Origin: Novosphingobium marinum
Lineage (GTDB): Bacteria > Pseudomonadota > Alphaproteobacteria > Sphingomonadales > Sphingomonadaceae
Assembly: GCF_013408095.1 (NCBI RefSeq)
Contig: NZ_JACBZF010000005.1
Coordinates: 248,001 to 312,000, forward strand
DNA: 64,000 nucleotides
Direction of reading: 5' to 3'
The notes beneath the pieces were generated by a model. The model saw nothing but the letters and a program-made list of their open reading frames with translations. It ran no database searches and was not told the origin of the DNA. Within the stretch, counting starts at the first letter, position 1; each line of letters begins with the position of its first letter. A program made the position numbers and the translations under genes. This document shows positions 51,925 through 64,000 of the stretch, piece after piece.

Positions 51925-52010
51925 GGACAGGTGGCCGAGTGGTTAAAGGCAGCAGACTGTAAATCTGCCCGCGCAAGCGTACGTTGGTTCGAATCCAGCC
52001 CTGTCCACCA
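51925..52010 (+). tRNA. tRNA-Tyr (anticodon GTA), insertion target
   Basis: 86 bases with a long variable arm (class II) and encoded CCA. The acceptor GGACAGG pairs with CCTGTCC, the anticodon region CAGACTGTAAATCTG gives GTA, and the T arm is TTGGTTCGAATCCAG. The gene is complete. An integrase gene follows within 200 bases on the same strand, so the 3' end is the probable attachment site. Confidence 0.96.
51985..52010 (+). other. Probable attachment site (attL) in tRNA-Tyr 3' end
   Basis: P4-type integrases usually recombine at the T arm and acceptor end of a tRNA gene, and the island begins right after it. No second copy of the tRNA 3' end was seen in the window, so the right junction (attR) would lie beyond base 64,000. 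The exact core is unknown. Confidence 0.6.
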
Positions 52011-52206: not shown

Positions 52207-53391
52207 ATGGGCAAACTTACAGCAGTGGCGGTCAAGGCCGCCTTGGCGAATCCGGGCACCTATCAGGATGGCGACGGTCTTTTCCTGAAAGTTGGAAAAA
52301 CTGGTGCGGCTTCCTGGCTCCTGCGACTCCAGCGCGATGGCAAACGTCAGGACATTGGTTTGGGTAGTGCGAAGCTGGTGACGCTGGCCGATGCGCGCGC
52401 GAAGGCCGCCGAACTCCGCAAGGCGGTGAAGGTCGAGAAACGCGATGTGTTGACGGAGAGGAAGGATGAGGAAGCTGCCAAGGTTACTTTCCGCGAAGCC
52501 GCTACCCAATATCATTCCGAAAACGAGGCAGGCTGGAAGAGTGATGTCTACGGTCGCCAATGGCTCGCCAGTCTGGAGAACTACGCCTTCCCGAAACTGG
52601 GCGATATGACGACTGGCGGAATCACCGCTGCGGACATTATCGGGGTGCTCACGCCGATTTGGCAGGAAATTCCGGAAACGGCTCGCCAGGTCCGCAACCG
52701 GATTTGCGCCGTGCTCGATTACTCCCATGCAAAGGGATGGCGCTCCACCGAAGCTCCATCGGGCAATAGCAGCCTTAAGGCGGGCCGAGGGCTGCCGCGA
52801 CAGATCAAGAAACCGGCCAACCGCAAGGCAATGCCGTACGTCGCCGTTCCTCCATTCCTCACCGCGTTGCGGCGCAAGCCATCCTATTCGCGCCTCGCGC
52901 TCGACCTTCTCATTTTGACGGGCGTTCGCTCGCAGGAAGTGCGGCTTGCTAAATGGGGTGAATTCGATCTGGACCAGCGCCTTTGGACAATCCCAGCCGA
53001 ACACATGAAGCGCAGCAGGGCGCACATCGTGCCGCTGTCAGAAGCGGCGATGGCGGTCCTTTCGAGGGCAGAAGCCATGCAGATGGAGGGAGCCGAAGTG
53101 GTTTTCCCCGGCATGACCGGCAAGGCCATGTCCAACATGACGCTGCTGAAGGTCATGCGAGACATGCAGGAGCCTTTCCACGTTCATGGTTTCCGCTCCA
53201 GCTTTACTGACTGGGCCGCGAATGAAGGCTTCCCCAATGCGGTTGTCGAAGCGGCATTGGCGCACAAGACGCCGGATGCTGTGCAGGCCGCGTATCGGCG
53301 AACGACCTATCTCGGCACGTCCGAGAATCCAGGCGCGAGAGTGAAGCTGATGGATGCGTGGGGAGAATACTGTTCTGGTGCCCATGCTTAA
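52207..53391 (+). CDS. P4-type tyrosine site-specific integrase
   Basis: 394 residues. The N-terminal arm-binding domain (DUF4102-like, YQDGDGLFLKVGKTGAASW, residues 18-36) and SAM-like core (90-190) precede the catalytic domain with Arg241 (LTGVRSQE), His327 and Arg330 (HVHGFRSSF), His353 (LAHK) and the nucleophile Tyr363 (AAYRRTTY). It would insert and excise the element at tRNA-Tyr. ATG at 52207; the open frame upstream runs through the tRNA and is not coding. No excisionase gene is recognised nearby. Confidence 0.93.
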   Translation: MGKLTAVAVKAALANPGTYQDGDGLFLKVGKTGAASWLLRLQRDGKRQDIGLGSAKLVTLADARAKAAELRKAVKVEKRDVLTERKDEEAAKVTFREAATQYHSENEAGWKSDVYGRQWLASLENYAFPKLGDMTTGGITAADIIGVLTPIWQEIPETARQVRNRICAVLDYSHAKGWRSTEAPSGNSSLKAGRGLPRQIKKPANRKAMPYVAVPPFLTALRRKPSYSRLALDLLILTGVRSQEVRLAKWGEFDLDQRLWTIPAEHMKRSRAHIVPLSEAAMAVLSRAEAMQMEGAEVVFPGMTGKAMSNMTLLKVMRDMQEPFHVHGFRSSFTDWAANEGFPNAVVEAALAHKTPDAVQAAYRRTTYLGTSENPGARVKLMDAWGEYCSGAHA

Positions 53392-53488
53392 GCCGGTATG
53401 CCCAAAATTGATCCTCCACCTAGGTGACATTGTAGATATCGCATCTTAAGCCACTTGCAGCTTTGATTTGAATCGGAAGGGTTTAGTT

Positions 53489-54229
53489 TTGTTCAGAAAA
53501 TTGTTTGGCGGAGGCGCGCCTCAATCGCCCGCGTACGAAGCCGGTCAGCACCTTTTCGAGCAGGGTATGAGAGCGGCCAGCGAGTATCGTACCGCCGACG
53601 CGATAGCGCTCTACACGGGGTCGATTGAAGCAAACCCGAATCCTGCACCGCTCATCAACCGAGCGAAGTTGTATCGCTGGCGACTGATGTTCGAAGACGC
53701 GATCACCGATCTAGAAACTGCTGTGAAGCTCGATAAGCAACAAGGCGACGAATTTGCTGCTCCGTTAGCACAGGAACTGCGCGAATGTAGGATTCTTGCT
53801 GAAAACCGATTTAATGGAAAGCGACCGCTTTTCATCGCGGATCTCAATGACAAAGGCTTCGATCATGTTGCGGGCCGAATTGCGGACACAATCTTTCAAG
53901 GCAACGGCCAACTTCTAGCGTATCACATGGTGAATGAAGTCGATAACGCGAAAAAGTTCGAAAATCTGTCTGATTTCCCTTCAGTGAAAACGCTTCTAAA
54001 CAATTGGATGAAAGATCAAAATGTCATAGATCAAGCTCTGGCTGACCAACGCATCCACGCCGAATACGAACCAAAGCGCGGCATCTTCGAAGCGATGGTT
54101 TGCGTATATGACTACCCCGACATGGCAAAACTGCGTGATACGATCGTGCGAAAGATATGGTGCTTGTTAAACCCGCCAAGCCAAATGCAAGCGATTTGGG
54201 AAGCGAGTCTTCGTGATCCAGTTCAGTAA
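53489..54229 (+). CDS. Orphan island protein with TPR-like N-terminus
   Basis: 246 residues. Residues 15-90 show two or three tetratricopeptide-like helices (EQGMRAASEYRTADAIALYT; INRAKLYRWRLMFEDAITDLETA, read as two pieces). The C-terminal 140 residues (RPLFIADLNDKGFDHVAGRIAD onward) match no family I know. No signal or membrane segment. The start is probably the TTG at 53489 (GGAAGG upstream); a TTG 21 bases earlier is possible. The gene is visibly richer in A and T than its neighbours, a sign of separate acquisition. It lies in the cargo spot next to the integrase, convergent with the next gene. Confidence 0.7.
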   Translation: MFRKLFGGGAPQSPAYEAGQHLFEQGMRAASEYRTADAIALYTGSIEANPNPAPLINRAKLYRWRLMFEDAITDLETAVKLDKQQGDEFAAPLAQELRECRILAENRFNGKRPLFIADLNDKGFDHVAGRIADTIFQGNGQLLAYHMVNEVDNAKKFENLSDFPSVKTLLNNWMKDQNVIDQALADQRIHAEYEPKRGIFEAMVCVYDYPDMAKLRDTIVRKIWCLLNPPSQMQAIWEASLRDPVQ

Positions 54230-54308
54230 ATGATCCCGCGATAACGAATCGAGCGCAAATGGGCTGTAGGGCCAAGAGAGTATAGTATTCGGCGATTGCG
54301 ATAGCGCC

Positions 54309-55067
54309 CTACGGTGCCACTTGGATCGCACAACTGACCGAATGCCCCACTTCTCGCGCCCGCTCGTTGCAGTGTTCGAGCACCTCGCGGTTTGCACTGA
54401 GGATGCGCTGCGCTGTAGCCAGTTCCTCCCAAGCTTCGGGGTTCTGAGAACGGATCAACCGTATTCCGGCGTCCACGATTGTCGGCTCTCCAACGGCTTT
54501 GCGAGCCATTCGTTCGGGCCAGTGCCAGCTTTCGGGCATGGTGCGTGCAATGGTGCCGGGCAGGATCGACCATAGCAGGATACCGACAGCCAGCCCTAAG
54601 CCTGCAAAGCGCCAGGTCTGGCGCGTCTGTTCGGCCTCTGCGCGGACGCGCCCGACAATAACCGCGAGCCGACCGGTTACATTGTCCAGGTCTTTGCGGC
54701 CCTGCCGGAATAGGTCGCTACTGTCGCGCAGCATGTCGAGAGAGGCGCGCTTGATCTGAACCGCGATATCTTCCGGCGTCAGCTCGATGGCGGGCTTGTT
54801 GCCGATTGCGGTCAGCGTCTTGGAGACCTGTGCCAGTTGATCGGCCATCTGGCCGAGCGTGGCCGTGTAGTCCGGAATCACGATGTCGGCTCGTTCCCTG
54901 GCCATGTTCTGGACTGTATGGCGTACCATCGCCATCTCGCCTTCAAGACGAGCGAAGGCTTCCGTTGCCGGGTCGGACTCGGTCACCGGCTCCGGTTCTG
55001 GTCTCGGCGCGGGCGGTTCCTCGACTTCGAGGTCCAGTTGCACTTCTTCGATGTGGTCTTCTTCCAT
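54309..55067 (-). CDS. Coiled-coil membrane protein (DUF6118-like)
   Basis: 252 residues. An acidic, proline-rich N-terminus (residues 1-35) is followed by a predicted coiled coil (about 40-145), one transmembrane helix (FAGLGLAVGILLWSIL, near residue 155) and a C-terminal region ending SVSCAIQVAP. I match it with moderate certainty to DUF6118, a family seen beside TraA relaxases in sphingomonads. It may act in transfer or surface exclusion (inference). ATG at 55065-55067. It follows the relaxase gene by ten bases, so they form an operon. Confidence 0.7.
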   Translation of the reverse strand: MEEDHIEEVQLDLEVEEPPAPRPEPEPVTESDPATEAFARLEGEMAMVRHTVQNMARERADIVIPDYTATLGQMADQLAQVSKTLTAIGNKPAIELTPEDIAVQIKRASLDMLRDSSDLFRQGRKDLDNVTGRLAVIVGRVRAEAEQTRQTWRFAGLGLAVGILLWSILPGTIARTMPESWHWPERMARKAVGEPTIVDAGIRLIRSQNPEAWEELATAQRILSANREVLEHCNERAREVGHSVSCAIQVAP

Positions 55068-55077
55068 TTCGTTTCTC

Positions 55078-57963
55078 CTAAATGCCCATGTCGAAAGCGC
55101 GGGTGCGCTCGCGGCTGAGAGTTGCGGTGAGTTCGTTTGCGATGCTGCGTTCGGGCTTCGGATTGATGCCGAGTTCGCGCGTCTTGCCGCGCAGCAGGCC
55201 TTCGATCTGGGGATCGCGTTCAAGCGACTTCGCCAGCTCGGCCAGCTTGGCCGATACGCGGGCAGCGCCTGCGCGGTCGCCCTGCTGTTCAAGCTGCTTG
55301 CGCGCCGTGCTCAGTCCCTGCCAGTCGCTGACAAAGCGCTCGGATCGCAGCGCCGGATCGGTGCGCACTGCGGCCTCTTGGCTCATGGCGCGCATGACTT
55401 CCTGGCTGCGCCCGCCAGCGGCCTTTGCAATCAGCTCAGGATGCCGCTCCAGCGCTTTGGCGAGATCGGCTGCGGCATGGGGCCGGATTGCATCGAGCGT
55501 CTTCCCTGCCTTCTCCAGCGCGTCTTTCTGGTGCGGAAGCACGGGCAAGCCATGAGCCTGCATCGTACCGATATCGCCAAGCGCACGGGCGTAGCGTTCG
55601 ACCGCGCGGTGCTGGTCGTTCTGCGTGTTTGCCTGGGCGGGAATCGGCTCAAGTGATCGGGCCTGCGGGCGGAAGTTTCCGAAGATCGATTTGGCCTTCT
55701 CCGGCACCTGCCGCACCATCTCCACGATCCGCTCGCGGAAGCTGATGCCGCGGAGTTCGGCAAAGGCCTGCTCGGGTTTGTAGTCGCCCGCCATGTCCTT
55801 CCCACGCTCACGGCTGAGCGTGCGAACCAGTCTGGACTGTTCGGCGAAGTCATCGCGCCCATAATGGAGGGCCAATCCGTCGCGATGACGCGACATGGCG
55901 ACATAGGCCGAATGACTGTCCATACCCGGCGTGGCGAGCACATGCGCGCGATCCACCGTCATGCCCTGCGCTTTGTGTATCGTAGCCGCGTAGCCATGAT
56001 CGATGTGGCCATAGTCCTTGGTGTCGAAGGCAACTTCGCGTCCATCTTCGGTGCGCACCGCCATGCGCTGCGGGCTGGCCATTGCGACCGTGCCAAGCGT
56101 CCCGTTCTTCACCCCAAGTCCGCGCTCGTTACGCAGGAAGATAATTCGGTCGCCGTTCGCGAACTGCCGCTCGCCGCGTGCCGCCTTGATCGTGGCATCG
56201 ACACCTAGTGCGCCAGCCTCGCGCATCTTCCCGCGCGCCATCTGGTTCAGCTCGCGCACCTCGTCATTCGTATGGGTTAGGATGATCCGGCTATCGCCGG
56301 GGCTGGCCTGCCGTTCCTGATTCCACCGCTCGATCAGTTCTGTCCGCGCGACCTCGCGCGTGTCAGCGGCATGGACCATGCCGCGCTCTTCATAGGAGCG
56401 GATCGCTTCGCCGGTCCGGCCCGTGGCGAGGTGCCGGGTCGCATCTTGCTGCCATGCGGAAAGCTGGCGGCGAACCTCGCTGATCTCGACCCCGCCGTGG
56501 CGCTCGTGGATCGCCCTGAACGCCGCGCCTGCTTCGATGGCCTGAAGCTGATGCTGGTCGCCAACCAGCACCACCTTCGCACCGGCCTTGGCTGCATGGG
56601 ACAGCACGCGCTCCATCTGGCGCGTGCCGACCATGCCCGCTTCGTCGATGACGAGCACGTCGCGCGAAGTGAGTTGCTCGCGTCCTTTGCCCCATTGATG
56701 CTCAAGGCTGGCGACGGTGCGCGATGCGATGCCGGAGCCGTTCCTCAGACCCTCGGCGGCAATGCCGGAAAGGGTTGCGCCGCGCACAGTGTAGCCTGCG
56801 TTTTCCCATGCCTCGCGCGCCACGCCCAGCATGGCGCTTTTGCCGGTTCCGGCGTAGCCAACGACAACCGCAAGACCACCATTCTTGGTGACGTGCTCGA
56901 AGGCAGATTTCTGCTCACCGGACAGGACCAGTCCGCGCTTCGCAGCACTGGCGAATGCGGCGTTTCGCTGGACATCGCTGAGGCTGTGCTTGGCGTGCCC
57001 GGCCATTGTGTCGGCGGCGCGGTGCAGGCGCTGTTCGGTCTCGATCATGGCGCGCGAAGTGAACCGATCCTGCTCGCGTCCATCTTTGCCAAGCGAAATC
57101 AGTTCGGGCGATGCGCGCACGGCACTGAAGACCGCATCGAACTGCTCCTTGCCGTCGCTGTGCCGGTGAACAAATGCGGCAAGATCGCGCTGCGTGAACG
57201 TCGCCTGCTGGTGCGTTATCGCATCCAATGCGAGCGCAGGGTTGGCGATGATCCGCTTGCCATTACGTTGAGAGATGGCGCGGTGCTCTTCGATCCGTTC
57301 GGCTTCCAGACCGCGCTCGCCAATGCGTGAGGCGGCAGGGCCGATCTTGTCCTGTGGTTCCAGCGCAATGCCCTGCGCCTCCAGGCTGCGGTGATCGATC
57401 CGCGCGTCGATGTCGCGTTCTGCCAGGGCGCGGTTCACATGATCGGCCCAGCGCTCGCGCCATTGTTCGATCAGCGCGGTCTTGTTCCAGCCGCGAACCT
57501 TTGCGCCAAAGCCATCCTTCGTCACTTCGCGCATCGTGAGCATGACATGCGCATGGGGCTTGGCCTTGCCGTCCTCACCAATATCCCAATGGACGTTGAG
57601 ATCGGCGATCATGCCTTTCTCGACGAACTCGGCTTTCACGAACTCGCGCGCCAGTTTGATGTTGTCCTTCTTGGAAAGCTCGCGTGGCAAAGCGAACTCG
57701 ACCTCGCGGGCGAGCTGGGCATCCTTGCGTTTCTCGGCGGTCTCGACCGCATTCCACAAGGTGGCGCGGTCGGCGAAGGCTTCGGGCGCGCCTTTGGGCA
57801 GCATCACTTCGGAATGAAGGACGCCTGCCTTGTTGGTGAAGTCGTGGTCACGGTCGATGCGCTCATCGTGCAATCTCTCGCCCGCACGATAGGCCGCCGC
57901 CGCAACAGCACTGCGTCCGCTCGACCTTCCGATGACCTTTGCGCTGAAGTGAAAGATTGCCAT
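55078..57963 (-). CDS. traA: TraA-type conjugative relaxase-helicase (MobQ family)
   Basis: 961 residues. The N-terminal relaxase has the nucleophile candidate Tyr25 (AAAAYRAGERL), His125 (NVHWD) and the metal pair His137/His139 (KPHAHVML). A RecD2-like helicase follows (Walker A GYAGTGKSAML at 369-379, Walker B VLVIDEAGMVG, SF1 motif HGYAATIHKAQGMT), then a long coiled-coil tail. It would nick at oriT and unwind the strand for transfer. ATG at 57961-57963. It is divergent from the traC/traD-like genes across the oriT-like site, exactly as in Ti-type plasmids. Confidence 0.92.
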   Translation of the reverse strand: MAIFHFSAKVIGRSSGRSAVAAAAYRAGERLHDERIDRDHDFTNKAGVLHSEVMLPKGAPEAFADRATLWNAVETAEKRKDAQLAREVEFALPRELSKKDNIKLAREFVKAEFVEKGMIADLNVHWDIGEDGKAKPHAHVMLTMREVTKDGFGAKVRGWNKTALIEQWRERWADHVNRALAERDIDARIDHRSLEAQGIALEPQDKIGPAASRIGERGLEAERIEEHRAISQRNGKRIIANPALALDAITHQQATFTQRDLAAFVHRHSDGKEQFDAVFSAVRASPELISLGKDGREQDRFTSRAMIETEQRLHRAADTMAGHAKHSLSDVQRNAAFASAAKRGLVLSGEQKSAFEHVTKNGGLAVVVGYAGTGKSAMLGVAREAWENAGYTVRGATLSGIAAEGLRNGSGIASRTVASLEHQWGKGREQLTSRDVLVIDEAGMVGTRQMERVLSHAAKAGAKVVLVGDQHQLQAIEAGAAFRAIHERHGGVEISEVRRQLSAWQQDATRHLATGRTGEAIRSYEERGMVHAADTREVARTELIERWNQERQASPGDSRIILTHTNDEVRELNQMARGKMREAGALGVDATIKAARGERQFANGDRIIFLRNERGLGVKNGTLGTVAMASPQRMAVRTEDGREVAFDTKDYGHIDHGYAATIHKAQGMTVDRAHVLATPGMDSHSAYVAMSRHRDGLALHYGRDDFAEQSRLVRTLSRERGKDMAGDYKPEQAFAELRGISFRERIVEMVRQVPEKAKSIFGNFRPQARSLEPIPAQANTQNDQHRAVERYARALGDIGTMQAHGLPVLPHQKDALEKAGKTLDAIRPHAAADLAKALERHPELIAKAAGGRSQEVMRAMSQEAAVRTDPALRSERFVSDWQGLSTARKQLEQQGDRAGAARVSAKLAELAKSLERDPQIEGLLRGKTRELGINPKPERSIANELTATLSRERTRAFDMGI

Positions 57964-57992: not shown

Positions 57993-58020
57993 ACGTCGGC
58001 ACGACGTATAAGCGCGCCCT
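57993..58020 (+). other. Predicted origin of transfer (oriT) with nic consensus
   Basis: ACGTCG (57993-57998) and CGACGT (58002-58007) form a perfect inverted repeat with a three-base loop. Directly after it comes TAAGCGCGCCCT (58009-58020), one base different from the RSF1010 nic core TAAGTGCGCCCT, and Ti-plasmid oriTs are closely related. By analogy the nick would fall between 58016 and 58017. It lies between the divergent relaxase and accessory genes, the expected place. Confidence 0.82.
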
Positions 58021-58136: not shown

Positions 58137-58442
58137 ATGCGCAAACCCCGCGATTTTGATTCGGAGCTGAAGGCGCTCGCCGAGAAGGCAAAGCAGTTGA
58201 AGGAACGCCGCGTGCGCGAGCTTGGCGCGCTGGTCACGGCAACCGGAGCCGACGCGCTCGATGCCGAAGTGCTGGCTGGCGCACTGCTCGACGCTGCCGC
58301 CAACACCGACAAGGCGACCGCGGAGGGCTGGCGCAGGCGTGGCGCGGCCTTCTTTCAGGGCAAGCAGCGCAACACTGCGAGCGGACCTCGCCAGCAGCCG
58401 GAAGGCATTCTCCCGCTCGACGGCGGCGCGGCATCGGCTTGA
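58137..58442 (+). CDS. TraC-like mobilization accessory protein
   Basis: 101 residues. The N-terminal helix KPRDFDSELKALAEKAKQL and the following RRVRELGALVTATGADALDAE match the small TraC/TraD conjugal-transfer proteins that help the relaxase at oriT. ATG at 58137. The TGA overlaps by none with the next gene but the two are only 22 bases apart. Divergent from traA. Confidence 0.78.
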   Translation: MRKPRDFDSELKALAEKAKQLKERRVRELGALVTATGADALDAEVLAGALLDAAANTDKATAEGWRRRGAAFFQGKQRNTASGPRQQPEGILPLDGGAASA

Positions 58443-58464
58443 GGCAGCAAAGGCGCGAACCGAC

Positions 58465-58698
58465 ATGCGCGAATGGCAGGTCAAACGACGCGAACGGACC
58501 CGGCGGCTTATCGAGCTGGGCGGCCTCGTCGCCAAGGCCGATCTGGTCGAACTAACCGATGATGATCGCGCTGCACTTTACGGAGCATTCCTCACCGTTG
58601 CCGCCAAGTTGCGTGGGCCTGATGGTGCGCAGGCGCTGGTGCTGTTCCGGCGCAAGGGGAAGAGGGCTTTCGAGGCTGAGCAATCGAATGATGGATAG
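58465..58698 (+). CDS. TraD-like mobilization accessory protein
   Basis: 77 residues, basic. RRERTRRLIELGGLVAKADL, then ELTDDDRAALYGAFLTVAAK, is the pattern of the TraD family that accompanies TraA in Ti-type systems. The ATG at 58465 is the best start, although similarity seems to extend a few residues upstream. It is convergent with the helicase gene, which ends 28 bases away. Confidence 0.75.
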   Translation: MREWQVKRRERTRRLIELGGLVAKADLVELTDDDRAALYGAFLTVAAKLRGPDGAQALVLFRRKGKRAFEAEQSNDG

Positions 58699-58726: not shown

Positions 58727-60901
58727 CTAATCCCGTCCTAAAATTGAGCTGGTCAACTCAGCCAATCCGCTAGCGTCTAGGTGAGCGGACAACGCATCTT
58801 TCTGCAGCAATTCCTCTGTCAAATGTGGATGGAATTTCTCGAACAAAAGGTTCGGTGAATGAGCAAATAGGTCCACCTCTTTGCCATCTGCCAGAGCTGA
58901 AAGTGCGTCGATCAACTCCGGACTGTTGTCCTTACCGAACACTTCCAGAAACCCGTCGTGTGTCTGCACGGTGAAGCCGTTGGCGCGAAGGGCGAGTGCC
59001 AAGGTCGTTGTCCGAACGGAACCTGTTTTGGTCGCTATGACAGCAGCATTGTCGCTGAGCTGCGCAATCCTTCCGGGGTCAAATTGCAGTTGGCCGTAGT
59101 TGCTGCGTGCCTCGTCGAGTAGCTCTAGCGCAGTCGGATCAAGATAGATCGGGCGCTTTTGTCCTTTTAGAACATCGAACATTCGCTCGATCACGCGGTC
59201 GTGGATGTTGCCAGGATCGCCCCCAAAAATGGGCGGCACTCCGGCTTTCGCTGGTGCAACCATAATGACACGATCCCGGTCGAGAACTTCTTGCACCAGC
59301 CAGCGCCTGCGCGAAAAAATGAGAAGCATTCCCGGCGCGATCATGTTGTCGATGGGAAGTGTCCCAAGCTCCTTACCGCCGGAAATCAGCCGGTATTCTT
59401 CGGGTGTCTGGAACACGGCATAGAAGCTGTAATGCTCGACCAAGTTCTCGCCCATTTCACCGAGCAGTAGCAGTCCATCACTGGCTTGCTCGATGAGCGC
59501 AGTTTCGGGATGTCCGAGCGTCCGCAAAACATCCAGGAACAGCTGTGTATCGACCTGACGGAATGGCCCGATCTGGCAGAGAATCCCGTAGAGTTGCTGC
59601 GCACGTATTCCGCCTCGCTCGGCGATCACTGAGAGGATTTGGTGAACGAGGGTCGAAAGGTGAAGGGCCTCGCGTTGCGGCGGTTCACACCAGCCCTCCA
59701 AAAGCAATTCGATCATCGCTATGGCCCGCACCATCCCAAGGCGAAGACGGTCCGAGAAATTGCTCGTCGGCGTAAGCTTCGCCTCGACTGCGTATTGTCG
59801 AAGGATGGCTGGCTTGCCCGGTCGCCGCCCTGATCGGCCAAGCCTTTGCCTGAGCGATGCGACGCTGAACGGTGCGCCAATCTGGCCGACACAGGTCACA
59901 TCGCCAATGTCGATTCCCAGTTCCAGCGTGGAAGTGCAGATGGCAGTCGTCGGCGCAGTACCATCTTTCAGGCGACGTTCGACGAAGTCTCGATGCTCGC
60001 GCGACAGGCTGGCGTGGTGAGGGTAAAACTCCTGCGGCAGGTGTTCCTTTTCGCAAAGTGCGCGCAACCGATCTGAGTAGATTTCAACTGCCTGACGCGC
60101 ACCGCCAAAGACAAGATTGTCGCTGCCTCTCAGGTGTTCGAATAGGTGCTGCGCGATGGCATCCGTCGCTGAAGGGCCTTCATCATCCTTGTCGCCTGCA
60201 ACGTAGCCACGAAGCTGAAGCTGCAATTCGGCTGATCCGCTCTCGGCAATGACCTGTTCGACTTCACTTGGGCTGTCAGGGCGAAGATAAGCCTTCGCCA
60301 GCTCCATATCTCCGAGTGTGGCCGACAAACCAACCCGGCGGATAGGTCTCTTGAGAGCAATTTCGAGGCGCGTGAGAAGCGAACGCATCTGGATGCCACG
60401 CTCACTGTCGAGGACCGAATGCAATTCATCGAGAATGACTGCGCGCGTCGCACCAAACAGCCTCGGAATCTCCAATCCGCGTCGAATGAAGAGAGCCTCA
60501 AGTGACTCCGGGGTGATAAGCAGCACGCCCCTCGGTCGCTTGGTAGCCTTTGCCTTTACCGATGACGAAACATCGCCATGCCACGGCGTAATAGGCAAGT
60601 CTGTATCGCGACATATGTCTTCAAGTCGCCGCGCCTGATCGGTGATGAGCGCCTTCAGCGGCGCGACATACAGGACATCAAATCCGGAGTCCTCACTGGG
60701 TTCGTCGAGCAATTGGGACAGTAGCGGGAGAAATGCGGCTTCGGTCTTACCTCCTGCGGTGCTGGCAGCGACAATCAGGTCACGATTGCCGTCCATAAGC
60801 ACGTTAGTTGCGCGCGCCTGAATATCGCGCAATTCCTTCCAGCCTTGCTGACGTATCCATTTCTGGATTGGTCGAGCCAGCTTGTCGAACGCAGTGCTCA
60901 C
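58727..60901 (-). CDS. sngC: DExH helicase, SngC-like (Shango)
   Basis: 724 residues, superfamily 2. Motif I AASTAGGKTEAA (about 45-56), motif II VILDELHSVLD (DELH at 158-161), motif III VGLSATLGD, motif VI QRLGRSGRR. The C-terminal half resembles the Lhr/BrxHI type. With the two upstream genes it makes the TerB/ATPase/helicase set of the Shango system; the BREX proteins BrxD and BrxHI are related. The GTG at 60901 overlaps the stop of the ATPase gene by four bases (GTGA), giving tight coupling. Confidence 0.8.
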   Translation of the reverse strand: MSTAFDKLARPIQKWIRQQGWKELRDIQARATNVLMDGNRDLIVAASTAGGKTEAAFLPLLSQLLDEPSEDSGFDVLYVAPLKALITDQARRLEDICRDTDLPITPWHGDVSSSVKAKATKRPRGVLLITPESLEALFIRRGLEIPRLFGATRAVILDELHSVLDSERGIQMRSLLTRLEIALKRPIRRVGLSATLGDMELAKAYLRPDSPSEVEQVIAESGSAELQLQLRGYVAGDKDDEGPSATDAIAQHLFEHLRGSDNLVFGGARQAVEIYSDRLRALCEKEHLPQEFYPHHASLSREHRDFVERRLKDGTAPTTAICTSTLELGIDIGDVTCVGQIGAPFSVASLRQRLGRSGRRPGKPAILRQYAVEAKLTPTSNFSDRLRLGMVRAIAMIELLLEGWCEPPQREALHLSTLVHQILSVIAERGGIRAQQLYGILCQIGPFRQVDTQLFLDVLRTLGHPETALIEQASDGLLLLGEMGENLVEHYSFYAVFQTPEEYRLISGGKELGTLPIDNMIAPGMLLIFSRRRWLVQEVLDRDRVIMVAPAKAGVPPIFGGDPGNIHDRVIERMFDVLKGQKRPIYLDPTALELLDEARSNYGQLQFDPGRIAQLSDNAAVIATKTGSVRTTTLALALRANGFTVQTHDGFLEVFGKDNSPELIDALSALADGKEVDLFAHSPNLLFEKFHPHLTEELLQKDALSAHLDASGLAELTSSILGRD

Positions 60902-62202
60902 AGTCGGAAGCTGGCTAGCTCGTCGCTCTCGGGAACAGCGCCAACGCTCTCATCCACGTCGCTCATGTCGTCACCAGAATCCTCCGCCACGTCGAGTTCT
61001 TCGATGAGGTCCGACCATTCGACGCCGGGGTTTTGTTCGAGCACCGCCAAAAGATTCACGAATGCCGTGACCGTGTTCCGGGGGGTTCTGAAATAGGCCT
61101 CCCCGATCCTGTCCGAACAGTGTGCCATAAACGCTTCCAAGGCGTTGTCTGGCAGGATTGCTTCATCGCCCTGCATAACGGTGCGAATGTTGGCCAGAAG
61201 CACGAACAAATCTTCGGGCGTAAGACTGGCTAGTCGAATGACCGGCCCGGAGAGATCGACCAGTCCGTCACGCGCAAAGGTGTTTTCTGCGAGGCGAGAC
61301 TGGAGTGCCTCATAGCTGTAGAGGCCGCGCCGCGTATTCATGAGGAATTCCGGCGTTCCTCCCATGAGGAAGCCAAGGTTCTCTGCGCTGCCTTGGAGCA
61401 CATCGTTCAGAATGCGCAGGATTTGCTCGTAGTTGGCATTGCGGGCTTGCGATGAAGTCAGCTTGTAAAGGTTGACCATCTCGTCAAGGCCGACGAGCAG
61501 GCCCTTGTAGCCCGCTTCACAGACAAATGCCGACATCAGTTTGAGGTGGTCGTAGACGCTGGCGTCATTGACGATGGTGCGAACACCTAGTGCCTTGCGA
61601 GCATCGGTCTTGGTCGCAAATTCGCCGCGCAGCCATCGAATTGCTGCCGATTTCAGTTCTTCATCGCCGGTTTCATGTCCCTCCCAATACCGGCGGATCA
61701 CCTGCGCGAAGTCGAAGCCTCCTGTCAGCTCCTCGAAGTGGGCAAGGCGCTGGCGAATGATGTCATCTGTCGATTGTTCTTGCGCCTCGGCATCGTGCTG
61801 GGCCTGGCTGACAAAGCGTTCGACAACATTCGACAACGCACCACCATCTGGCTTGGTCCGGGTGGCAAGATTTCGCGCCATCTCCGCGTAGAGGCCCCGT
61901 GCTTGCCCGCCGGTCGCGTGGATGCGTCGATCCGGGGCAAGGTCGGCAAACATGACGACCAGTCCCTTTTCGAGCGCCACAAGCCGGATCAGGTTCATGA
62001 AGAAGGTCTTGCCGGAGCCATACTCGCCGATGATGAAACGAATGGCTGAACCGCCATCGGCGATCCGGTCCATGTCCTTGACGAGTTCTTCGATCTCGCG
62101 CGCTCGTCCGACCTGGATGTGCCGAAGTCCCAATTTGGGAACAACACCCGCGCGTAGCGCCTGAACAATAGCGTCGCGTTCGCGCGGCTTCAGTCTCGAC
62201 AT
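60898..62202 (-). CDS. sngB: P-loop ATPase, SngB/BrxD-like (Shango)
   Basis: 434 residues. Walker A IIGEYGSGKTFF (residues 58-69) and Walker B LLVGLDEMVNLYK fit the DUF2791 (BrxD-like) ATPases. The N-terminus begins MSRLKPRERDAIVQALRAGV, typical of this group, and the acidic C-terminal tail (DVAEDSGDDMSDVDESVG) is low complexity. It would power or sense the system. ATG at 62200-62202; three bases after the TerB gene stop. Confidence 0.8.
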   Translation of the reverse strand: MSRLKPRERDAIVQALRAGVVPKLGLRHIQVGRAREIEELVKDMDRIADGGSAIRFIIGEYGSGKTFFMNLIRLVALEKGLVVMFADLAPDRRIHATGGQARGLYAEMARNLATRTKPDGGALSNVVERFVSQAQHDAEAQEQSTDDIIRQRLAHFEELTGGFDFAQVIRRYWEGHETGDEELKSAAIRWLRGEFATKTDARKALGVRTIVNDASVYDHLKLMSAFVCEAGYKGLLVGLDEMVNLYKLTSSQARNANYEQILRILNDVLQGSAENLGFLMGGTPEFLMNTRRGLYSYEALQSRLAENTFARDGLVDLSGPVIRLASLTPEDLFVLLANIRTVMQGDEAILPDNALEAFMAHCSDRIGEAYFRTPRNTVTAFVNLLAVLEQNPGVEWSDLIEELDVAEDSGDDMSDVDESVGAVPESDELASFRL

Positions 62203-62205
62203 AAT

Positions 62206-64000
62206 TTAATCCCCCTTCGCCATCTCGGCTCTCAACGTATCGGCTATGTCCGGCGATACGTCATATCCGTCATATTCATCGAGCAATGCTTCATCGAATT
62301 TATCGAAAGCCCACTCATTGACTACCTCAAGCGCGCCAGAGGGCATGAGCCCTTGCTTACCGGCGATCTCGTCAAACTCTTCGTCAGTCCAGTGTTCGCG
62401 CTGGATTATCTGCTCCACAAGCAACGCGTGCTTGGGATCGAGGCCAGCCATTGATGATGAAAGGGCATGTGCTGCGGTGGCTTGGTCGTCCACGTCGTCC
62501 TCGGTCGAAAAAATCTCGCCGAGTACGCTTGAAACGCGCTCGGTGTCATTTCGAATGGCGGCAATACGCGCTGCATCGAGCGAACCGGCTTTGGCTTTCC
62601 GCTCGTCCGGTATTTGTTCGCCTGGTGCTTCAGCTTCGGCGGCTTTGACGCGAACCGGGCCGTCTGGCACGTCGCCGGCATGGAGGTCGGCGTAAACGAG
62701 GCCAGCATCGATCCCCAGAGCCTTGTAGATCTTCTCGATGCAAGCCACTTCTTCAGACTGAATCACGCTGTCGGCGTGGGCTATCGCGACAACTGCCGCG
62801 CGCAGGGCTAGATGATGCTCAGTGTCCGCATCTTTCAGCTTGCTGCGCAGCCATGACATGTCTGGCGGAACATCGAGATACCATTCGAGGTTGGCGTGGA
62901 GACGCTTTCTTTCAAGCTCAGTCAGGCCGCTAACAGCGTCGATCTTTTCACGGAGTGCTCTGCGTTCGGCTTCCACAATTTTGCTGTCGGCATGTGCTAC
63001 GAAGGTCGCCAGCGCTAGTTCAAACAATTCGGTTCGATAGGCCGGGGAGACGTCTTCAAGCTGTTCGACCGGCTCGCCGAGTTCGAAGATCACAACGGGT
63101 TCGTCGATCTTCGGTCCGCGCAGCGAGAATCTTGGGTCTGGAGCCATACCGAACCCGATACGGGCGAGTGCATCCGCTGCGCCAGTCAGGTTCCGCTTGC
63201 CGAGCTTCTCCGGCGTTTCTCCTTCCAGGCGCGAGATCACATCAAGTGCTGGGACCAGCCCTCCCGTCGCTACTTGCTCGCGCGCCCAATCCTTGAGTTC
63301 TTCCAACTCGTCCGACGGGAACAGACGCCACAGCTCAGCAGGTAGGAGCGCCTGTGCTTCAATGCTCCCGCGGCCATCTGGATTTCGTCCAAGATACCGG
63401 CTGAACTTATCGAGTTCATCCATTGCCTCATCTGCGATTTTTTGCGCTGTCTGTACCGGCGACCGCAAATCAGTCACGTCGGGGATCGCCACATCTCCGC
63501 CATCTCCCGCCGTGAGATTGACCGAGCAATTGAACTCGCTGGATGCAGCACGATAGTCCATTTTCAGAAGCTTGCGAGGCGTTCGAACTTTCAAGCCATC
63601 AGGATAAAGCGCGTCGAACTTCAATTTGAAAAGTGCCTTGAATTCGTTGCCGCAACGCTCGGCTGGAGTGCGAAAGCGTCGCTCTGGGTGGCAATGCAGC
63701 CAGAGATGCAGCCATTCGGCATCAAAGGCTTTGCCTTCGGCGATCATGCCGCCGAGCGCGAACTTCAGCGAAAATGGCAAATCCCAGCTACGGTTCTCAA
63801 GGATCGTCTGCTTAAGTGTCGTATCGTCCAAGGAGATGCCGCCCATCGCCATGATACGCGCGATGTCGAGAAACTCACCGAGATACCTTTGTGCGGAGTA
63901 ATTGTGGGCGAAAAGAGCCTTCAGACGCTCCACCTCTGCAACGATTTCCTGCTTCTCATCGTCGGGTGGTTGGTCGATCAGAAACCTGCGCTCCAGACCA
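62206..64000 (-). CDS. sngA: TerB-domain protein, SngA-like (Shango), 5' end outside window
   Basis: At least 597 residues, the frame open to the window edge. The visible N-terminal part (FLIDQPPDDEKQEIVAEVER, then ALFAHNYSAQRYLGEFLDIA) fits the TerB_N type. A TerB core lies around 290-420 of the visible protein (LALATFVAHADSKIVEAE, AVVAIAHADSVIQSEEVA) with the paired aspartate/glutamate metal sites. The C-terminus (WTDEEFDEIAGKQGLMPSGA, then ALEVVNEWAFDKFDE) fits TerB-C. It is first in the operon. A GTG near 63933 is not the true start because the frame continues upstream. Confidence 0.8.
   Translation of the reverse strand, partial: GLERRFLIDQPPDDEKQEIVAEVERLKALFAHNYSAQRYLGEFLDIARIMAMGGISLDDTTLKQTILENRSWDLPFSLKFALGGMIAEGKAFDAEWLHLWLHCHPERRFRTPAERCGNEFKALFKLKFDALYPDGLKVRTPRKLLKMDYRAASSEFNCSVNLTAGDGGDVAIPDVTDLRSPVQTAQKIADEAMDELDKFSRYLGRNPDGRGSIEAQALLPAELWRLFPSDELEELKDWAREQVATGGLVPALDVISRLEGETPEKLGKRNLTGAADALARIGFGMAPDPRFSLRGPKIDEPVVIFELGEPVEQLEDVSPAYRTELFELALATFVAHADSKIVEAERRALREKIDAVSGLTELERKRLHANLEWYLDVPPDMSWLRSKLKDADTEHHLALRAAVVAIAHADSVIQSEEVACIEKIYKALGIDAGLVYADLHAGDVPDGPVRVKAAEAEAPGEQIPDERKAKAGSLDAARIAAIRNDTERVSSVLGEIFSTEDDVDDQATAAHALSSSMAGLDPKHALLVEQIIQREHWTDEEFDEIAGKQGLMPSGALEVVNEWAFDKFDEALLDEYDGYDVSPDIADTLRAEMAKGD

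Follow-up and report, generated by a model that had tools for sequence, protein, structure and literature searches.

A candidate single-gene cargo with a possible defence role in the variable integrase-side slot of a tRNA-Tyr element of Novosphingobium marinum

The stretch of DNA analysed here (hereafter the window) comprises 64,000 nucleotides of the Novosphingobium marinum genome and carries what is probably a mobilizable or conjugative element at a tRNA-Tyr gene (gta; 51925-52010, forward strand). This tRNA gene is the integration site, and its 3' end forms the left edge of the element. It is followed by a tyrosine integrase with arm-binding, central and catalytic domains (52207-53391, forward strand; PF13356, PF22022 and PF00589). 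The gene under study, hereafter the orphan gene, is a candidate cargo ORF of 246 codons at 53489-54229 on the forward strand, and a gap of 97 bp separates its start from the end of the integrase. Beyond it lies a backbone gene of the DUF6118 family (54309-55067, reverse strand; PF19613, E 1.9e-20), which forms the right edge of the cargo slot and whose start was placed, on visual inspection, at the ATG of MEEDHIEEVQ. The backbone continues with a TraA/MobQ-type relaxase-helicase (55078-57963, reverse strand; NF010464, TIGR02768, MobQ), the family match of which begins at residue 14 of an ORF starting at 58002, and with a small TraD-like conjugation protein (58222-58698, forward strand; PF06412, E 2.3e-18). 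The element also carries, as separate cargo, the Shango genes sngC (helicase; 58727-60901; PADLOC E 8.6e-272), sngB (ATPase; 60898-62202; E 2.4e-179) and sngA (TerB-like protein; 62206-63933; E 6.9e-69), all on the reverse strand. Since the SngA ORF begins inside the TerB_N profile, with the match starting at profile position 122, the gene probably extends past 63933.

Two further loci, L001 and L002, carry elements that likewise lie at tRNA-Tyr and share the gene order of the window. At L002, a PDC-S06-type AAA_13 ATPase and a DUF3320 protein are located downstream of the transfer genes instead of Shango, which suggests a second cargo region. The far end of the element in the window was sought by means of the tRNA end; its 20-mer occurs once in the genome when up to one mismatch is allowed, and only 721 bp of the contig lie beyond the window. 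Of six genomes scanned, one (G198) carries, about 32 kb from the tRNA gene, a directly repeated 20-bp copy of the tRNA-Tyr 3' end (L103, position 3098), which is likely to be attR; the other five showed no such repeat within about 44 kb. In one genome (G033; L095, 499-3169), the match to the integrase breaks off at residue 213 and passes straight into the traA match. The locus appears to be a form of the element that has lost the slot and the DUF6118 gene by deletion. The occurrence of DUF6118 next to TraA on a plasmid is mentioned in a published report (PMC10413263). Another sphingomonad integrative mobilizable element resides at a seryl tRNA, and the term traA is absent from the text that describes it (PMC3516476).

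The orphan gene was predicted to start with TTG and to be richer in AT than its neighbours, and both features were borne out. The sequence GGAAGG lies upstream of the TTG at 53489, and the proteins of relatives start in the same register (MVFGRLFGGG in Rhizobium against MFRKLFGGG of the orphan protein); for these two reasons this start is favoured over the upstream TTG at 53468. The GC content of the gene is 0.501 and its GC3 is 0.530. The corresponding values are 0.596 and 0.678 for the integrase, 0.613 and 0.695 for the DUF6118 gene, 0.638 and 0.751 for TraA, and 0.651 and 0.885 for the host gene lon, host genes including lon and dnaX having a GC content of 0.65-0.69. Among the 32 greedily selected ORFs of at least 200 residues in the window (mean GC 0.648, SD 0.045), the orphan gene, scored in this ranking with a longer start, has the lowest GC content.

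The TPR-like start proposed for the protein has some support. Pfam TPR_2 matched residues 55-83 at an E-value of 8e-4 (19.8 bits, below the curated cut-off of 27), and the TPR matches reached 1.7e-5 in three of the five aligned family members. When a profile of the five members was searched against the PDB, TPR proteins were matched with E-values down to 2e-10. In this profile search, the repeats of CHIP, SPAG1 and RPAP3 resembled the N-terminal 80 or so residues of the orphan protein. Unlike these proteins, the orphan protein showed no match to a U-box or other known partner domain, and its C-terminal domain resembled nothing that was matched. The N-termini of the family members, except for that of the Caballeronia member, begin with a short run of hydrophobic and basic residues. 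The Caballeronia relative (L005, 11539-12756) instead has an N-terminal extension of about 140 residues with a transmembrane-like hydrophobic segment.

The C-terminal domain had been described as unrecognised, and an HMM search agrees: the C-terminal 140 or so residues had no convincing match in Pfam, NCBIfam, PADLOC or PHROGs. The best match was phrog_18763, a family of unknown function, at E 0.0026 over residues 161-200. No PADLOC family matched the orphan protein or any of the five aligned members even at E<=1, and the protein gave no match to NADase or nuclease models and lacks a transmembrane-like segment. When aligned locally with three distant relatives, the C-terminal part nevertheless scored 126, 121 and 113, whereas the maxima of 300 shuffles each were 44, 48 and 48. 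Since these scores are far above those of the shuffles, the orphan protein belongs to a real protein family. Residues invariant in the five sequences include H146, N149, D152, N153, F157, C205, Y207, M212, L215 and R216, and the conserved motifs of the domain are [FY]H-x-x-N-[ED]-[LV]-D-N and C-x-Y...M-x-x-L-R. A structure predicted by AlphaFold on two sequences was set aside as unusable (mean pLDDT 45.0, with residues 110-246 below 50).

The family is thinly distributed. The orphan gene is about 99% identical to the copies in the two other sphingomonad elements, L001 and L002, which are Novosphingobium and Erythrobacter records. A word-based scan of one genome per species (84,980 species), which reaches close relatives only, found these two near-identical loci and no others. 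The gene was present in one of 298 genomes of the family, namely that of the window. Among 196 genomes of the order, one partial TPR match was found besides the own genome; among 337 of the class, one near full-length relative (in G727) and three partial matches were found besides the window. A profile search at E 1e-6 recovered only the own genome among 398 of the phylum. In the surroundings of G727, one of four genomes, G727 itself, carried a relative. Relatives were found in four of 72,556 plasmid records, three of Rhizobium (two strains, judging from the names) and one of Caballeronia. No relative was found with two queries in 50,697 phage records, and five scans of viral contigs gave no confirmed relative. 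Four partial matches (G335, G656, G558 and G625; E 2.8e-4 to 8.9e-4) were excluded as relatives; three of them span TPR residues only, and that in G625 covers residues 25-159 at 29% identity. With the gene in one of 298 family genomes, its homologues are not all vertically inherited housekeeping genes. The word orphan, which we keep as a label, held in part: two near-identical copies stand against it, and beyond them there is a thin set of relatives in Rhizobium, Caballeronia and G727 with overall identities of 29-34%.

The neighbourhoods of these relatives gave a mixed answer to the expectation of defence islands. On the Rhizobium plasmid pTA1_2, the relative WP_027688988.1, an uncharacterised hypothetical protein of about 34% identity to the orphan protein across the TPR part and the C-terminal domain, has an integrase on one side and, on the other, a block of NERD-helicase, DrmB, DrmA and UvrD-like genes; it thus adjoins DrmA, DrmB and NERD genes, not Shango. 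This adjoining four-gene block (L004, 10058-19094) is a DISARM-like variant, and no DrmC model was among the matches listed for it. In the Rhizobium strain RCAM0626, the relative, annotated as two ORFs, adjoins an integrase. Its 5-kb flanks, for which the gene table is incomplete, showed only a hypothetical protein beyond the relative and no DISARM-type block. The surroundings of the relative in G727 are ICE-like: it is situated between the genes for a DUF3363 relaxase and for ParB, with other ORFs intervening, and LmuB-like, GmrSD and HNH genes lie about 5-10 kb away from it. The Caballeronia relative is surrounded by metabolic and transport genes, and no integrase or defence gene was recognised by eye among the ORFs of at least 200 residues in the roughly 7.5 kb to either side. 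The expectation therefore held in G727, in one of the Rhizobium strains and in the lineage of the window, and it failed for Caballeronia, the neighbourhood of which counts against a general link to defence.

The slot itself was then compared among sister elements. Searches of the 298 family genomes gave matches to the integrase in 92 (E<=1e-80) and to DUF6118 in 47 (E<=1e-20). Twenty integrase loci were sampled, most of them among the highest-ranking matches; only G033 lies below about 79% identity, and a few loci of 78-81% were left out. Eight of the 20 showed the order integrase-slot-DUF6118-traA (G251, G102, G283, G258, G148, G198, G290 and G255), with integrase identities of 83-97% and slot lengths from 11 bp to 6.4 kb. 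One further locus (L080, in G070) retained a DUF6118 fragment only, another is the truncated integrase of G033 described above, and ten (L084, L085 and L087-L094; 79-88% identity) had no DUF6118 match in the stretch. In one of these ten (G207; L092, 5302-7664), PD-Lambda-2 B and C genes follow soon after an integrase of 79% identity. The orphan protein, used as a query at E 1e-8, matched none of the 20 loci, the eight integrase-DUF6118 loci included.

The contents of the eight slots differ. That of G255, with an integrase 83% identical to that in the window, is empty, only 11 bp separating the integrase stop from the DUF6118 match. The slot of G102 contains a 285-residue AbiC/putAbiC protein, and that of G148 an 810-residue SIR2-STAND protein. 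In G283 (L078, 1811-3037), a 408-residue protein shows a PDC-M34B match together with a sub-threshold match to HEPN_Swt1, so that its gene is a candidate for another defence gene. The slots of G251 and G258, with one and two genes, respectively, gave no Pfam or PADLOC match; that of G198 carries several genes that look transporter- and hydrolase-like by eye, and that of G290 contains no convincing gene. Of the seven non-empty slots, five have a GC content of 49-54% and the other two of 57% and 59%, against about 60% for the integrase. These data show that the contents of the integrase-adjacent slot vary among elements that share the backbone.

We also read all 14 matches to DUF6118 that lie in other genomes and reach 74-85% identity, seven of which belong to the eight sister loci and seven of which provide further flanks. 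Among the latter, G232 carries a full-length PD-Lambda-4_A, G116 shows partial PDC-M43B/M18B matches, and G136, G178 and G223 carry gene pairs, that of G223 being a near copy of that of G178; the pairs of G136 and G178 gave no PADLOC match. The flanks of G105 and of contig C30 of G258 look chromosomal by eye. There are thus 15 places in all: one empty, two chromosomal-looking and 12 occupied. The Pfam search covered the occupants of five slots, and the PADLOC search covered nine of the 12 occupied places, leaving out G198, G290, G223 and two further ORFs of G232. A known or candidate defence match was obtained by PADLOC in five of the nine loci and six of 14 ORFs. Of ten mid-stretch control ORFs, drawn from ten of the 12 stretches L096-L107 (without L105 and L107), one matched PADLOC at the cut-off of E 1e-3, and that partially (E 7e-6); these controls are partly chromosomal by eye, and two resemble reading-frame artefacts. 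A one-sided Fisher test of slot against control gave 0.05 by locus and 0.10 by ORF in this small sample, and it is worth noting that PADLOC models also match ordinary helicases such as TraA. These facts are only suggestive of an enrichment of defence genes in the slot over the controls.

Comparison with L001 and L002 bears on how the orphan gene came to its position. Between the window and L001, the 246 codons of the gene differ by three synonymous and five non-synonymous changes (dS 0.019), which are too few to show selection. The adjoining integrase, in contrast, shows a dS of 0.583 and a dN of 0.033 against L001 and a dS of 0.592 against L002. In the comparison with L002, a tract of about 1.1 kb (53260-54365) that covers the integrase 3' end, the orphan gene and the DUF6118 3' end has eight substitutions, apart from an assembly gap, whereas the flanks in 100-bp blocks are 74-93% identical in the integrase on the left and 78-91% in DUF6118/traA on the right. 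In the comparison with L001, only the left border is visible; identity stays at 95-100% through DUF6118 until the L001 contig ends. The alignments show an exchange of the orphan gene, with little flanking DNA, separately from the adjoining integrase. The integrases of L001 and L002 are close to each other (dS 0.12), and yet the borders of similarity to the window differ between the two loci, which suggests more than one exchange. The exchange may have proceeded by homologous recombination in the conserved 3' ends of the integrase and DUF6118 genes. The original prediction had placed the gene in a cargo position beside an integrase. This position was upheld, in that the slot varies among sister elements and is often defence-bearing, with the addition that the orphan gene has moved apart from the integrase.

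The best explanation, in our view, is that the orphan gene is single-gene cargo of the element integrated at tRNA-Tyr, filling the slot that is bounded by the integrase on one side and by the DUF6118-traA transfer module on the other, and that it belongs neither to the housekeeping genes nor to the transfer backbone; it would probably serve in defence against phages or mobile DNA and represent an undescribed family of TPR repeats joined to a new domain. We regard this reading as a whole as evenly poised. Its cargo part agrees with what had been predicted; the defence role, which is drawn from location and was accompanied by no match to a defence model, is plausible but unproven. The presence of Shango on the same element speaks for defence. 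The slot occupants of G198, G251, G258, G136 and G178, which are not defence-like or match nothing, speak against it.

It is also conceivable that the gene is adaptive or neutral cargo unrelated to conflict, acting in stress, complex assembly or metabolism, or that it encodes an immunity protein against a toxin. The similarity of its TPR part to the TPRs of co-chaperones would fit such a role, as would the Caballeronia copy amid metabolic genes, with its hydrophobic segment in the N-terminal extension, and a C-terminal domain that matched no known family. Its association with mobile and defence-bearing surroundings, seen in the lineage of the window, in one Rhizobium strain and in G727, points the other way, as does the rarity of the gene in the family, class and phylum genomes. 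We consider this explanation rather unlikely.

The gene might, alternatively, serve the biology of the element itself (excision, transfer, entry exclusion or maintenance) and merely happen to lie in the slot. Its place next to an integrase in the window, L001, L002 and the Rhizobium plasmids, and the position of the G727 copy between relaxase and ParB genes, could be understood in this way. Elements with a 93-97% identical integrase and the DUF6118-traA module, however, carry unrelated DNA in its place, the slot of one element with an 83% identical integrase is empty, and none of the 20 sister loci was matched by the orphan query. Since the backbone is found without the orphan gene, the gene is not needed for the backbone, and it is unlikely to be required for transfer; this explanation seems to us less probable than the preceding one. 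A fourth Shango component, about 4.5 kb away on the same element, is very improbable, because the L002 copy is accompanied by the PDC-S06-type ATPase and the DUF3320 protein instead, traA and DUF6118 intervene on the strand opposite to that of the orphan gene, and none of the genes read around the Rhizobium and G727 copies was Shango-like.

If the orphan gene is indeed defensive cargo, its product would shield the host or the element from phages or from rival mobile DNA, a task that several other occupants of the slot probably share, and we would give this about an even chance. The TPR part would act as a protein-binding sensor or scaffold for a partner or a phage protein, and the new C-terminal domain may be the acting part, or effector. 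A more specific proposal is that the gene is the founding member of an undescribed family of single-protein defence systems, consisting of a TPR sensor and a new effector domain with the motif [FY]HxxN[ED][LV]DN, which would have spread by recombination-driven exchange in the defence slot of sphingomonad tRNA-Tyr elements. This we put forward tentatively, at somewhat less than even strength.

Known single-gene defence cargo of the AbiC-like and SIR2-STAND types occupies the same slot in sister elements as the orphan gene, which itself matches neither family. In P4-like satellites, the region between psu and int is described as a hotspot for defence genes, where the system present changes from one element to the next (Rousset et al. 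2022; PMC9122126). As in the sphingomonad elements, this is a variable slot on the integrase side that often holds small defensive systems. The present backbone differs from that of the satellites, being that of a mobilizable or conjugative element at tRNA-Tyr of sphingomonads, with a TraA relaxase and DUF6118. The P4 hotspots, according to the same source, lie directly beside cos, whereas the borders of exchange observed here fall in the coding sequences of the integrase and DUF6118 (PMC9122126). The slot works like the psu-int hotspot of P4 on an unrelated backbone. Among the matches listed in a literature search, considered at the level of titles and the beginnings of abstracts, there was no description of this slot.

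Taken together, the comparisons indicate a compact and often defence-bearing slot in a family of sphingomonad mobile elements, and the sharp breakpoints indicate that its cargo moves between elements without the adjoining integrase. The slot offers a ready list of orphan genes, the one at 53489-54229 included, that could be screened singly. If it is true that the family defends, the combination of TPR repeats and a new domain would be a new entry among defence families.
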